Positions 21,995 to 25,204 of a stretch of DNA of 33,047 bases are shown piece by piece; positions within the stretch are counted from its first letter, which is position 1; each line of letters begins with the position of its first letter. This stretch comes from Mycolicibacterium chubuense (GTDB lineage Bacteria; Actinomycetota; Actinomycetes; Mycobacteriales; Mycobacteriaceae). Under the pieces are notes generated by a model, which made no database searches, was not told the DNA's origin, and saw only the letters and a program-made list of their open reading frames with translations. Position numbers and translations under genes: made by a program. The stretch lies in contig NZ_JYNX01000058.1 of the NCBI RefSeq assembly GCF_001044255.1, forward strand, positions 24,155-57,201, in the 5' to 3' direction.

Positions 21995-23686
21995 GTGACC
22001 GATACCGTTCCCGCGACCGAGGTGGAGGCGCCGGCGCCGGCGCCCCGCAAACCGTGGTGGGTCCGGCGCTACACGTTCACCGGCACCGCCGTGGGTCTGG
22101 TCCTGCTGTGGCTGTCGATGACGCCGTCGCTGCTGCCCCGCGGTCCGCTGTTCCAGGGCCTCGTCAGCGGCGGCGCGGGCGCGATCGGGTACGGCATCGG
22201 TGTGTTCGCGGTGTGGCTGGGGCGCTACATGGCGTCGAAGGACTCCAGCCCCCCGGCGCCGCGCTGGGCCTGGTTGGTGCTGCTGGTCGTCGGCGTCATC
22301 GGGCTGGTGCTGGCGATCATCTGGTTCCACGAGTGGCAGGACGACGTTCGCGATCTGATGGGCGTCCCGCGGCTGACGCTGGGCGATTACCCGCTGGCCG
22401 CGGCCATCTCGGTCGTCACGCTGTTCGTGTTCGTCGAAATCGGGCAGTTGATCGGCAGACTGGTGCGCTACCTCGTCCGTCAGCTCAATCGTGTTGCCCC
22501 GCCTCGGGTTTCGGCGGTCATCGTGGTGACGTTGTTGCTGGCGTTGACGATCGCGCTGCTCAACGGCGTGGTGGTGCGGTTCGCGATGAGCACCATCAAC
22601 AAGACGTTCGCGGCGGTCAACGACGAGACCGACCCCGACAACGCGCCGCCGGACACCGCGCTGCGCTCGGGTGGTCCCGAATCGCTGGTGAGTTGGGAGT
22701 CGCTGGGCCATCAGGGCCGCATCTTCATCTCCGGCGGCCCGTCGACCGACGAGCTCAGCGCGTTCAACGGCCGCCCGGCCACCGAGCCGATCCGCGCCTA
22801 CGCCGGCCTGAATTCCGCGGACGGCATCAAGGCCACCGCACAGTTGGCGGCGTTGGAGCTGCAGCGCACCGGCGGACTCGACCGGGCCGTGGTCGCGGTC
22901 GCGACGACCACCGGGACGGGGTGGATCAACGAGGCGGAGGCCTCGGCGCTGGAGTACATGTACAACGGCAACACCGCGATCGTGTCGATGCAGTACTCGT
23001 TCCTGCCCAGCTGGCTGTCCTTCCTCGTCGACAAGGAGAACGCCCGGCAGGCGGGGCAGGCCCTGTTCGAGGCGGTCGACGAGCTGATCCGGGAGATGCC
23101 TGAAGCCCGGCGACCCAAGCTGGTGGTGTTCGGGGAGAGCCTCGGCTCTTTCGGCGGTGAGGCGCCGTTCCTGGCGTTGAACAATCTGATCGCCCGCACC
23201 GACGGTGCGCTGTTCAGTGGGCCCACGTTCAACAACACGATCTGGACCGACCTGACGCACAACCGCGACCCCGGGTCTCCGGAATGGCTCCCTATCTACG
23301 ACAAGGGCGCCAACGTCCGCTTCGTGGCCGAGCCGAAGGACCTGCAGCGTCCGCACGATCCGTGGGAGCAGCCGCGTGCGGTGTACCTGCAGCACGCCTC
23401 GGATCCGATCGCGTGGTGGAACCCGGATCTGCTGTTCGCTCAACCGGATTGGCTTCGGGAACCGCGTGGTTACGACGTCTCCCCCGACATGGAGTGGATA
23501 CCGGTGGTGACGTTCCTGCAGGTGTCGGCCGACATGGCCGTCGCGGTCAACGTGCCCGACGGGCACGGCCACGTGTACGTGCGCAACGTGGCCGACGCCT
23601 GGGCGTCGATCCTGTTGCCGCCGGGGTGGTCTCAGGAGAAGACGGAGCGGTTGCGGCCGCTGCTGCGGTCCGACGAGAACAGCTAG
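21995..23686 (+). CDS. Membrane alpha/beta-hydrolase protein, DUF2319 type (Rv1069c-like)
   Basis: The 563-residue protein has four to five membrane helices in the first 180 residues (about 25-45, 60-80, 90-112, 125-150, 170-195). A large extracytoplasmic or cytoplasmic alpha/beta-hydrolase domain follows. The nucleophile elbow is FGESLGSFGGE (Ser near residue 384), preceded by MPEARRPKLVV. Other family blocks are VAVATTTGTGWINEAEASALEYMYNGNTAIVSMQYSF, GALFSGPTFNN, and YLQHASDPIAWW with a likely Asp. The GTG start is supported by the TAAAGT -10 element six bases upstream. Its stop codon overlaps that of the convergent rhodanese gene. The substrate is unknown; lipid esters are a reasonable guess. 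Confidence 0.88.
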   Translation: MTDTVPATEVEAPAPAPRKPWWVRRYTFTGTAVGLVLLWLSMTPSLLPRGPLFQGLVSGGAGAIGYGIGVFAVWLGRYMASKDSSPPAPRWAWLVLLVVGVIGLVLAIIWFHEWQDDVRDLMGVPRLTLGDYPLAAAISVVTLFVFVEIGQLIGRLVRYLVRQLNRVAPPRVSAVIVVTLLLALTIALLNGVVVRFAMSTINKTFAAVNDETDPDNAPPDTALRSGGPESLVSWESLGHQGRIFISGGPSTDELSAFNGRPATEPIRAYAGLNSADGIKATAQLAALELQRTGGLDRAVVAVATTTGTGWINEAEASALEYMYNGNTAIVSMQYSFLPSWLSFLVDKENARQAGQALFEAVDELIREMPEARRPKLVVFGESLGSFGGEAPFLALNNLIARTDGALFSGPTFNNTIWTDLTHNRDPGSPEWLPIYDKGANVRFVAEPKDLQRPHDPWEQPRAVYLQHASDPIAWWNPDLLFAQPDWLREPRGYDVSPDMEWIPVVTFLQVSADMAVAVNVPDGHGHVYVRNVADAWASILLPPGWSQEKTERLRPLLRSDENS

Positions 23687-24054
23687 TAGACCAGCACGCC
23701 TTTGAGTGCGTGGTAGCCGCCGATGACGTCGGTGGCGCGGTGCAGCCCGATCTCCTGCAGAGCCGCGGCCGCGAGGCTGGAGGTGTAGCCCTCCGAGCAG
23801 AGCACCACCCACTCGACGTCGTCGTCGACGGCCTCCGGCAGTCGGGCGTCGCTGGTGGGGTCGAGGCGCCACTCGAGCACGTTGCGCTCGACGATCAGCG
23901 CGGTGGGCACCTCCCCCTCGATCGCGCGCTGCGCGGCGGGACGGATGTCGACGAGGATCGCGCCGCGGCGCAGCGCGGCCGGGAGCTCGTCGGCGGACAA
24001 CCGGTTGATCTTCGTGCGTGCGTTCTCCAGAACCACGTCGATGCGGCTGCCCAT
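23683..24054 (-). CDS. Rhodanese-like domain protein (Rv1066-like)
   Basis: This 123-residue single-domain rhodanese transfers sulfane sulfur through a persulfide on its active Cys. Visible features are LSADELPAALRRGAILVDIRPAAQRAIEGEVPTAL (the substrate-loop region), RNVLEWRLDP, and the active-site loop VVLCSEGYTSSLAAAALQEIG with Cys86, so it should be active. The start ATG at 24054 is two bases after the cysteine dioxygenase stop codon, making a two-gene operon. Together they suggest oxidation of cysteine and handling of the sulfite or sulfane products. Its stop codon overlaps the convergent membrane hydrolase by four bases. Confidence 0.93.
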   Translation of the reverse strand: MGSRIDVVLENARTKINRLSADELPAALRRGAILVDIRPAAQRAIEGEVPTALIVERNVLEWRLDPTSDARLPEAVDDDVEWVVLCSEGYTSSLAAAALQEIGLHRATDVIGGYHALKGVLVY

Positions 24055-24056
24055 CT

Positions 24057-24569
24057 CTACTTCCCCTCCGGCTGGTCGGTCAACTCGGTTCGCTTGCGGC
24101 GCAACGTGTTGCGCTCGGAGACCTCGTAGTAGGACATCGCGGTCAGCGGCGGCGAGTAGGCGTGCACGCTCAAGGTGGGACCGGGTCCGATGACGCTGAT
24201 CGTGTCGCGGGCCCAGACCACATCATGCACCCAGCCGAGTGGGAACGCGGCCTGGTCCCCCGCCGCGAGCCGGCGGTGCCGCAGCTGCTCGCCGTCCCAT
24301 CGGGTCTCCTGCAGCGCACCCGACACCACCGTCAGCGCGCCGAGGGAGCCGCCGTGGTCGTGCAATTCGGTCGAGCGGTCGGGCACCCAGCTGATCAGCC
24401 ACACGTCGAGCTCGTCGTCGCCGTGCAGACGGGTGAACCAGCGTTCGGTGGTGGGTGTTCCGCCGGCCGGCAGTAGCCGGTCGTACCGCCCGCCCAGCAC
24501 GTCGGCGGCGTAGCGGTCGGTGGCGTGCAGCAGGTCGGCAGGGCGCAGCCGGGTAGGCGCGAGAACCAT
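24057..24569 (-). CDS. Cysteine dioxygenase type I (cupin), Rv1065-like
   Basis: This is a 170-residue cupin of the cysteine dioxygenase family, which oxidises cysteine to cysteine sulfinate with non-heme iron. The metal His residues are His70 and His72 in STELHDHGGSLGALTVVSGALQE and His115 in PLGWVHDVVW. SVHAYSPPLTAMSYYEV near the C-terminus matches the conserved Ser-His-Tyr region, including the Tyr that forms the Cys-Tyr cofactor in eukaryotes. The ATG at 24569 has GGAG seven bases upstream. It is separated by 43 bases from a tiny upstream frame with two consecutive Cys codons, suggesting cysteine-responsive control. The rhodanese follows in the same operon. Confidence 0.92.
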   Translation of the reverse strand: MVLAPTRLRPADLLHATDRYAADVLGGRYDRLLPAGGTPTTERWFTRLHGDDELDVWLISWVPDRSTELHDHGGSLGALTVVSGALQETRWDGEQLRHRRLAAGDQAAFPLGWVHDVVWARDTISVIGPGPTLSVHAYSPPLTAMSYYEVSERNTLRRKRTELTDQPEGK

Positions 24570-24612
24570 GGGGATACTCCAGGAAGGGACGAACGGGTGG
24601 GAGGGTTCGGCG

Positions 24613-24651
24613 TCAGGCCGGACAACACTCCAACGACGTCTCGTTCATCAC
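24613..24651 (-). CDS. Putative Cys-Cys leader peptide upstream of cysteine dioxygenase
   Basis: A GTG at 24651 directly followed in frame by an ATG at 24648 opens a 12-codon frame encoding (M)MNETSLECCPA and ending with TGA at 24613. The consecutive TGT codons lie at 24622-24627. AACACT (24658-24663, minus strand) has the A2 and T6 of the mycobacterial -10 box and ends six bases before the GTG, so the frame would be leaderless and translated from the first base. No ribosome site is present. It lies 43 bases upstream of cysteine dioxygenase. Leaderless short frames with consecutive Cys codons are known cysteine-responsive attenuators in mycobacteria; this one fits the class by position, size and target. 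Too short for statistical support on its own. Confidence 0.6.
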   Translation of the reverse strand: MMNETSLECCPA

Positions 24652-24751
24652 GTGGCCAGTGTTCCACAGAGTTTCGCCGTCCCGCCAGGGCCGGCAGATA
24701 ACCTCACGGTGAATCTGAATACCCGCAGTTCGGTGCCCGCGGCCGGTTGCC

Positions 24752-24757
24752 TACATT
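24752..24757 (+). promoter_or_regulatory. -10 box of a probable leaderless lpqV transcript
   Basis: TACATT ends exactly six bases before the ATG at 24764, matching TANNNT and the leaderless spacing. No ribosome site precedes the ATG. The opposing leader-peptide promoter lies about 90 bases away on the minus strand. Confidence 0.55.
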
Positions 24758-24763
24758 GGCGGC

Positions 24764-25204
24764 ATGCCCAGTCCAGTTGTCCGGGTCGCCGCTGTCGCCG
24801 TCGTGGGCGTGCTGGCCTGCGCCGGGTGTTCCTCGGCTCCCGAGCCCGCGGCACCGACGTCGTCCACGCCCGAGGCCTCGTCGTCGTCGGCGTCGCCGAC
24901 CCCTTCGCCGTCGCTGGCGCCCGACGCGGTCGCCGTCTCCCCGGGCGGCGTCACCACCAAGGTGGGCGCGCCCGCCGAGTCCACCGAGGACGACTACTTC
25001 CAGGCCTGCAGCGCCGCGCGGACGTGGATGGGCCAGCGCGGCGGTGACCCGAAGACGCAGATCGAGCCGTATCTGAAGATGCTGCAGAGCGCGCCGACGG
25101 TGGGTCCCGGCGACTTCGACAAGAAGTGGTCGGAGCTGTCGGCCGGGCAGCAGTCCGCGATGATCGTCGCGGTGGAGGCCGCCGCCGACGCGCTGTGCGG
25201 ATGA
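24764..25204 (+). CDS. lpqV: LpqV-like lipoprotein
   Basis: This is a 146-residue exported protein. The signal sequence MPSPVVRVAAVAVVGVLACAGC has a short basic start and a hydrophobic core. Two cysteines (19 and 22) are candidates for lipidation. The second, CAGC, is followed by a Ser/Ala/Pro-rich linker (residues 23-55) typical of mycobacterial lipoproteins, but the -3 position is Cys instead of the usual Leu or Val. The mature domain contains DDYFQACSAARTWMGQRGGDPKTQIEPYLKMLQ and a terminal VEAAADALCG, so two Cys could pair. By position it matches M. tuberculosis lpqV (Rv1064c). Function is unknown. Confidence 0.82.
   Translation: MPSPVVRVAAVAVVGVLACAGCSSAPEPAAPTSSTPEASSSSASPTPSPSLAPDAVAVSPGGVTTKVGAPAESTEDDYFQACSAARTWMGQRGGDPKTQIEPYLKMLQSAPTVGPGDFDKKWSELSAGQQSAMIVAVEAAADALCG

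Follow-up and report, generated by a model that had tools for sequence, protein, structure and literature searches.

The cysteine dioxygenase gene of Mycolicibacterium chubuense is preceded by a very short frame carrying two adjacent cysteine codons, and this leader is probably a translational attenuator through which a shortage of cysteine or tRNA-Cys would raise expression of the dioxygenase-rhodanese operon. Most likely it adds a member to the class of leaderless Cys-frame attenuators already known. The frame is conserved, its cysteine codons are rare ones, an extended -10 element stands in front of it, and it co-evolves with the spacer as a hairpin, which in most leaders of other genera masks the Shine-Dalgarno site (SD) and the start codon of the dioxygenase gene.

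Organization of the leader and the operon

The leader and the operon lie on the minus strand of the window, as the whole stretch of 33,047 nucleotides that was analysed is called here. The features are as follows, in window coordinates.

24764-25204, plus strand: lpqV, the divergent neighbour
24658..24666, minus strand: extended -10-like element TGG-AACACT; AACACT occupies 24663-24658 and the GTG follows six bases on
24613..24651, minus strand: short frame GTG...TGA of leaderless type, 12 codons, peptide VMNETSLECCPA; a Cys-Cys frame is found in 185/190 genus loci
24651-24649, minus strand: start codon GTG, followed by ATG (24648-24646), read from the sequence
24642..24649, minus strand: 5' arm of P0, GATGAACG; partner 24588-24595, probability about 0.93, class z -10.5
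24628..24631, minus strand: 5' arm of P1, GGAG, in the frame and adjoining the Cys codons on their 5' side; partner 24600-24603, probability about 0.97, class z -5.5
24622..24627, minus strand: tandem Cys codons TGT TGT, the putative sensor codons; TGT-TGT in 183/198 distinct leaders
24617..24620, minus strand: 5' arm of P2, CGGC, 3' of the Cys codons; partner 24608-24611, probability 0.94-0.97, class z -9.9
24615-24613, minus strand: stop codon TGA of the frame, read from the sequence
24608..24611, minus strand: 3' arm of P2, GCCG, from co-evolution and pairing probability; the stop codon of the frame lies inside the loop
24600..24603, minus strand: 3' arm of P1, CTCC, within a CCTCC at 24604-24600; its pairing with the SD instead has a probability of 0.002
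24588..24595, minus strand: 3' arm of P0, CGTTCGTC, 5' of the SD and complementary to GATGAACG
24577..24580, minus strand: SD of the dioxygenase gene, GGAG, read from the sequence
24057..24569, minus strand: cysteine dioxygenase gene, CDO_I (Pfam PF05995, E 1.4e-10)
23683..24054, minus strand: rhodanese-domain gene, second gene of the operon (Pfam PF00581, E 6.5e-9)

The initial annotation had described a cysteine dioxygenase-rhodanese operon behind a GTG-ATG frame of 12 codons with TGT TGT, a TGA stop and an AACACT six bases before the GTG. All of these elements are read on the minus strand, and Pfam assigns the two genes to CDO_I (24569-24057) and Rhodanese (24054-23683). All 25 PDB sequences matched by the dioxygenase are named cysteine dioxygenase or putative cysteine dioxygenase. 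The gene, whose orthologue we take to be Rv1065, was found in 136 of the 148 genomes drawn from the genus, and the closest named relative by this protein is Mycolicibacterium chlorophenolicum (99% identical). Rv1065 also occurs in the accessible part of an immunopeptidomics study.

The spacer between the stop of the frame and the dioxygenase start (24569) is 43 bases long. A generic -35/-10 promoter scan gave no match at the locus, and terminator-like sites number zero in 24400-24800. The intrinsic terminator and U run required for a classical transcription attenuator of the trp/ilv type are absent from the leader over the same interval. No Rfam family was matched at E up to 1 in the four loci searched (L001, L248, L255 and L259).

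Conservation of the Cys-Cys frame

The upstream regions compared within the genus comprise 80 named loci, 30 found by search, the locus of the window included, and 80 found by place. Many of these 190 regions represent one species twice; 158 are distinct. When no promoter condition is imposed, a short frame with two adjacent Cys codons is found upstream of the dioxygenase in 185 of the 190 loci and in 78 of the 80 named ones, so that conservation of the frame across mycobacteria, which the initial annotation had proposed as a check, is borne out. The five exceptions (L021, L106, L070, L101 and L176), read by eye, have TGT-CGC in two cases, TGT-CGT in one and TGT-TGA in one, and one has lost the stop. 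The last is L176, where the Cys-Cys frame seems, again by eye, to continue beyond the dioxygenase start. Under a strict definition, by which A[C/G]ACT stands a few bases 5' of ATG or GTG and a frame of at most 25 codons contains two adjacent Cys codons, the 33 kb window holds one such frame. Among the 80 named relatives this definition finds 74 loci on target and none elsewhere in 432,016 bases searched on both strands (74/80). The Cys-Cys frame before the dioxygenase is real and occurs far above chance.

For the analysis of codons and structure, 154 distinct mycobacterial leaders with an SD were kept, the entry condition being a stop at most 8 codons from the Cys pair. They start with GUG (124) or AUG (30) and end with UGA (85), UAG (35) or UAA (34), and both Cys codons are TGT in 140 of them. 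The pair is TGT-TGT in 183 of 198 distinct leaders, whereas TGT accounts for only 21 of the 173 Cys codons in the dioxygenase and the next frame at the 80 named loci. With TGT so rare in the genes of the operon, its retention in the leader needs a reason, which may be slow decoding, RNA pairing or both. The codon directly before the pair is GAG in 117 of the 154 leaders; several different codons follow the pair. A NANMNT hexamer lies 5-8 bases 5' of the start in 151 of the 154; TGN stands ahead of it in 140. Among 44 leaders from other genera, 30 are preceded by a promoter-like hexamer that likewise has TGN. Spacer lengths range from 26 to 57 nt in mycobacteria (38-48 nt in 119 of 148 leaders) and from 33 to 69 nt in the other genera.

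The hairpin in mycobacteria

RNAalifold applied to a MAFFT alignment of 148 leaders yielded no structure, and ribosum scoring only a weak one. The mycobacterial spacer aligns badly, and an alignment-free test was therefore used, in which the folds of frames with their own spacers are compared with those of swapped combinations. Over the 154 mycobacterial leaders the double-centred own-minus-swap energy is -3.57 kcal/mol (permutation sd 0.25), the own fold lying below the row mean in 126. Resolved by arm, the co-evolution amounts to z -10.5 for P0, -5.5 for P1 and -9.9 for P2. No such signal links the mycobacterial frame to the SD-AUG segment (z -0.2), and none links that segment to the first half of the spacer (z 0.1 for mycobacteria, -0.3 for other genera). 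Since the arms co-evolve and the pairings with SD-AUG do not, the mycobacterial hairpin is under selection but stops short of the SD. The gap from the end of the hairpin to the SD is 0-8 bases in 75 of the 154 leaders, and in no more than 16 does pairing of the SD with the frame exceed a probability of 0.5. A mostly free SD is predicted for mycobacteria, and for the window among them.

Two pairings had been proposed for the window from complementarity. The long-range one, between 24642-24649 and 24588-24595, is recovered with a probability of about 0.93 when no ribosome is present and belongs to the co-evolving P0 class; according to the folding model it is the base of the frame-spacer hairpin. 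The other, between CCTCC and the SD, did not hold up. The CUCC-GGAG helix has a probability of 0.002 with no ribosome, 0.144 with one at the first Cys codon (Cys1) and 0 with one at the stop; co-evolution between SD-AUG and the first half of the spacer is absent; and CTCC pairs instead with the GGAG inside the frame at about 0.97. Pairing of the SD with the spacer in the window climbs from 0.024 to 0.300 when a ribosome stands at Cys1.

The leader and its hairpin in other genera

From other genera of the same family, 59 upstream regions were taken (19 + 40 loci; L246, where the contig ends, was left out). A Cys-Cys frame with a readable SD is present in 44 of them, and in 36 of these 44 the peptide ends in QECCRG or RECCRG. 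The remaining 15, inspected by eye, include one MCCR and several frames with apparently a single Cys; in the rest none was seen. Apparent single-Cys frames, for example one ending in RRCRS, were seen by eye in L289, L291, L294, L284 and L300. In L295, L297 and L290 the leader frame has apparently only four codons, MCCR or MCCC, which would make a very small sensing frame if real. Outside the family, 12 loci of the same order were compared: L314 and L321 have a longer frame ending in DECCR or DECCP, and L316 and L317 a frame with QDCCRDC. The frame of L314 and L321 has 32 codons and stops about 100-111 bases 5' of the segment matched in a more distant dioxygenase. By eye, a frame resembling the rhodanese gene follows the dioxygenase in all 10 other-genus loci inspected.

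In the 44 other-genus leaders the hairpin is predicted to reach the ribosome site itself. The GGAG of the dioxygenase pairs with the codons just 5' of the Cys pair with a probability above 0.5 in 30 of the 44, and the dioxygenase start codon pairs with a CAU further upstream in the frame in 35. The swap test gave -2.23 kcal/mol (sd 0.32) with the spacer cut 5' of the SD, and folds 3.58 kcal/mol better than the swaps (sd 0.44) with the spacer cut 3' of the AUG; the own fold lay below the row mean in 21 and 28 of the 44 leaders, respectively. By arm, the co-evolution has z -5.7 for the frame with SD-AUG, -6.7 for P2, -2.4 for the P0-like arm and -0.2 for P1.

Base pairs were counted over 25 pairs in 35 of the 44 leaders, the other 9 being dropped because the core motif was absent or the spacer long. 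Of all cells 90.6% are paired, against 32.5-50.8% with slid partners, and there are 23 double-change cells against 9.1 in shuffles, none of the 500 shuffles reaching 23. In the same 35 leaders neither the pairs with double changes (5, against 4.6 in shuffles and 3 to 7 with slid partners) nor the pair types (23 against 24.1 in shuffles) exceed the controls. RNAalifold on 25 of the 35 leaders retained the AUG helix and the P2 hairpin and lost the SD helix. A change from U-A to C-G, with U to C in the frame, accompanies a GUG start of the dioxygenase gene in 7 of these 25.

A covariance model was built from 25 of the 35 alignable leaders, and 150 candidates were scored per genome. It matched 10 of 17 genomes, once each, and 9 of the matches lie just upstream of the dioxygenase gene; 6 of those 9 contain a leader used in building the model. 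The tenth match (G251, E 0.07) is on a contig other than that of the gene and was taken as noise. In six genomes of the genus the model gave one match, a weak one (G011, E 0.009), and the window scored E 1.2, within noise.

Computed effect of a ribosome on the dioxygenase start

The ribosome was represented by a 30-base footprint barred from pairing, and its effect was measured as the cost of opening positions -20 to +16 of the dioxygenase start. In the 44 other-genus leaders this cost is 18.6 kcal/mol for the bare RNA, 9.6 with Cys1 in the A site and 11.7 with the ribosome at the stop; opening is easier at Cys1 than in the bare RNA in 42 and harder in 1. In the 154 mycobacterial leaders the corresponding values are 13.8, 10.8 and 12.75 kcal/mol, opening being easier at Cys1 in 127 and harder in 7. 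The difference between Cys1 and bare in shuffled sequences is -0.57 and -0.70. When the leaders were thinned by likeness, opening was easier at Cys1 in 5 of 6 mycobacterial and 7 of 8 other leaders, a small sample. Without a ribosome, the other-genus site is much harder to open than its shuffles (18.6 vs 12.4). The same does not hold for the mycobacterial site (13.2 vs 12.8), which exceeds all six shuffles in 11 of 60 leaders. In the window, a ribosome at the second Cys codon gives almost no relief (12.5 vs 12.7).

When the ribosome was scanned along the frame, the site in the other genera was open over a wide range of positions, from five codons ahead of Cys1 to two beyond it, and closed again towards the stop. 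In mycobacteria the scan is flat when the region is taken from -15 and best at early codons when it is taken from -20, an optimum at the Cys codons being absent. For the SD-AUG segment alone, the 154 mycobacterial leaders give a mean change of +0.28 at Cys1; opening becomes harder (by more than 0.5) in 75 of them and easier in 30. The wider region was picked after this result, and the effect was therefore computed for five regions in a random draw of 90 of the 154 leaders. The change at Cys1 is -0.91 from -15, -2.25 from -18 and -3.08 from -20; for the core from -13 to +3 it is +0.07 (se 0.19), with opening harder in 36 of the 90 and easier in 16. The SD-AUG core of mycobacteria is rather free already in the bare fold, at 6.5 kcal/mol against 7.7 in shuffles. 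The footprint of the 30S subunit extends well upstream of the SD, and a helix upstream of the mycobacterial SD may hinder the subunit. In these computations, a fold that keeps the ribosome site closed until a ribosome stands at the Cys codons, as expected of the leaderless Cys-frame attenuators, is present in most other-genus leaders and, in mycobacteria, is seen only for the region extending upstream of the SD.

Leaders of the cysA2 type served as a positive control. Of 30 loci 28 were used; 15 proved usable, 12, of which 7 came from other genera, lacked a frame and 1 lacked an SD. Opening costs 16.5 in the bare RNA of the 15 leaders, 12.7 with a ribosome at Cys1 (12 of them opening more easily) and 11.7 with one at the stop. 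The computation thus reproduces the published sign when the stalled state is set against the bare RNA, but not when it is set against the stop.

Mechanism and alternatives

Transcription would start at or beside the GTG, and a 70S ribosome would initiate on the bare 5' end and translate the frame, where the two TGT codons would gauge charged tRNA-Cys. With no ribosome on the frame, or after it has terminated, frame and spacer would form one long hairpin, P0-P1-P2, masking the dioxygenase ribosome site or, in mycobacteria, abutting it. Pausing on the first Cys codon, a ribosome would cover the 5' arms, so that the hairpin would stay open and the dioxygenase could be translated. Because a ribosome at the Cys codons opens the computed hairpin (from 18.6 to 9.6 kcal/mol in the other genera), cysteine shortage should raise expression, the sign published for the leaderless Cys-frame attenuators; because the mycobacterial SD is mostly free, the sign of control is less certain in mycobacteria. 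The response to cysteine, and the same sign in the mycobacterial form, are presumed. Raising a cysteine-consuming enzyme when cysteine is low looks like a paradox, which counts against this explanation. So do, for mycobacteria, the position of the SD outside the hairpin, a bare site as open as in shuffles and the lack of an optimum at the Cys codons in the scan.

The reading of the initial annotation stands in part. Its cysteine-sensing leader agrees with the conserved frame and extended -10, with the retention of rare TGT codons and with a structure that co-evolves with the frame, and its long-range pairing is kept; its CCTCC-SD pairing and the inverse sign of control that it drew from it are not. 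That sign, in which ample cysteine lets the ribosome pass, the hairpin sequesters the C-rich spacer and the SD is free, while a stall at the Cys codons allows the spacer to mask the SD, suits the biochemistry of the enzyme, as cysteine would turn on its own degradation. It also accords with the rather free SD-AUG core of the bare mycobacterial fold and with the larger number of mycobacterial leaders in which SD-AUG is harder to open at Cys1 (75 against 30). Its positive evidence in mycobacteria is limited to the rise of SD-spacer pairing in the window. The geometry is the opposite in the other genera, where SD and start are mostly masked by codons of the frame and become accessible once a ribosome stands at the Cys codons; the first half of the spacer does not co-evolve with the SD-AUG region, the CUCC-GGAG helix stays improbable at Cys1 and vanishes at the stop, and the change of the core at Cys1 averages close to zero (slightly more for SD-AUG). 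We consider such control quite unlikely. A switch of sign within the family, with other genera ON at low cysteine and mycobacteria, whose SD is free and for which a stalled ribosome would be unhelpful or hindering, ON at ample cysteine, is unlikely as well.

Control of transcription or mRNA decay, with the Cys codons still the sensor and Rho loading on the C-rich spacer or the hairpin protecting the 5' end, would account for a strong hairpin near the putative 5' end beside a mostly free mycobacterial SD, and Rho has been suggested for mycobacterial cys leaders in the accessible text of an earlier study (PMC1262725). The absence of a terminator-like site in 24400-24800, the shortness of the spacer and the masking of SD and AUG in other genera, which points to translation, make this rather unlikely. 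The promoter-like stretch is itself conserved, and the region might be no more than a promoter, or might encode a small functional peptide, cysteine sensing playing no part; the frame, its Cys codons, the varied stops and the frame-spacer co-evolution would not be expected of a promoter, and the length and peptide of the frame vary, so this account is very unlikely. In E. coli tna, the leader peptide arrests the ribosome at the stop codon in a process involving Rho, and the operon is on at high amino acid. An arrest of this kind, the nascent peptide sensing free cysteine at the stop and the ribosome there altering the fold, would suit a catabolic operon, and tna, which PMC1262725 also names, resembles the present case in being the leader of an amino-acid-degrading operon. 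The Cys codons close to the stop and the recurring ends ECCRG, ECCRA and ECCRP fit it. Against it, the peptide is variable on either side of the Cys pair, and two of the frames read as no more than four codons, MCCR and MCCC. On average the site is opened less by a ribosome standing at the stop than by one at the Cys codons, and the evidence for peptide arrest known from tna has no counterpart in the dioxygenase leader; such an arrest is highly improbable here. Translational attenuation responding to shortage is retained as the best explanation.

Relation to known leaders

Canestrari and colleagues have reportedly described six leaderless Cys frames. The dioxygenase leader has adjacent conserved Cys codons (185/190 loci), in a run shorter than polycysteine, and lies upstream of an operon of cysteine and sulfur metabolism (CDO_I, Rhodanese). 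Judged by what citing papers say of the leaderless polycysteine leaders of M. smegmatis (the subject of Canestrari et al. 2020, doi 10.1111/mmi.14498), it resembles them in that a short frame with neighbouring Cys codons stands at a putative 5' end, a sulfur-metabolism operon lies downstream and a structure would close the ribosome site. It differs from them in having two Cys codons rather than a longer run, in the cysteine-consuming gene downstream, and in a hairpin to which the codons of the frame itself and a short spacer contribute the arms. The frames upstream of cysA2, Rv0485 and nirA (Shell et al. 2015, PMC4633059) are likewise leaderless, conserved, Cys-containing and placed before operons; the parts of that paper available name these three loci, unlike that of the dioxygenase, and the word dioxygenase occurs 0 times in the main text. 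In the M. chubuense genome itself, a long polycysteine frame of leaderless type, VSARVELVLTKRRAVDLCRVAGCCCCCSC, of the cysA2 type and ending in CCCCCSC, is present at another locus (G000:C66, L195:818), before a small gene and a two-domain rhodanese gene. The motif RR[A/T]V.LCR.AG recurs across the 16 cysA2-type loci in which a frame was found.

Candidate leader peptides of Mycobacterium cys operons published in 2005 (PMC1262725) are likewise encoded by short frames in which Cys codons form runs close to the stop; unlike the dioxygenase leader, they belong to a cys biosynthetic operon, a conserved hairpin was not found for them, and the accessible text does not mention the dioxygenase. The uORFC-8-2 motif of cysS in Rhodobacterales (PMC8632094, accessible part) similarly places a tandem pair of Cys codons within a stem, in a short frame upstream of the gene, but it differs in a U run consistent with an intrinsic terminator, in mostly UGC codons, in the tRNA synthetase gene that it precedes and in belonging to another phylum. 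Smith 2022 refers to six Cys-rich regulatory frames, the loci being unnamed in the text available. The dioxygenase is not mentioned in the accessible portions of that work, of a 2026 paper and of two reviews of the field. The literature searched, whose scope did not take in Canestrari 2020 and Barth 2021, contains no description of the dioxygenase leader, which does not imply that the leader is unpublished.

Implications

The leader has been kept throughout the genus and in most of the other-genus regions examined. VapC4, a toxin of M. tuberculosis that cuts tRNA-Cys, has been proposed, according to a review (PMC13091356), to mimic cysteine shortage through stalling at Cys codons. Under a signal of this type cysteine could be plentiful, which would ease the paradox noted above. 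If the leader is indeed wired as a sensor of shortage, either the dioxygenase-rhodanese pair would serve to salvage sulfur and not to dispose of cysteine, or the signal would be the charging of tRNA-Cys, not cysteine itself. The two registers of the hairpin, one with the SD masked and the other with the SD free, make the sign of control testable between two lineages.
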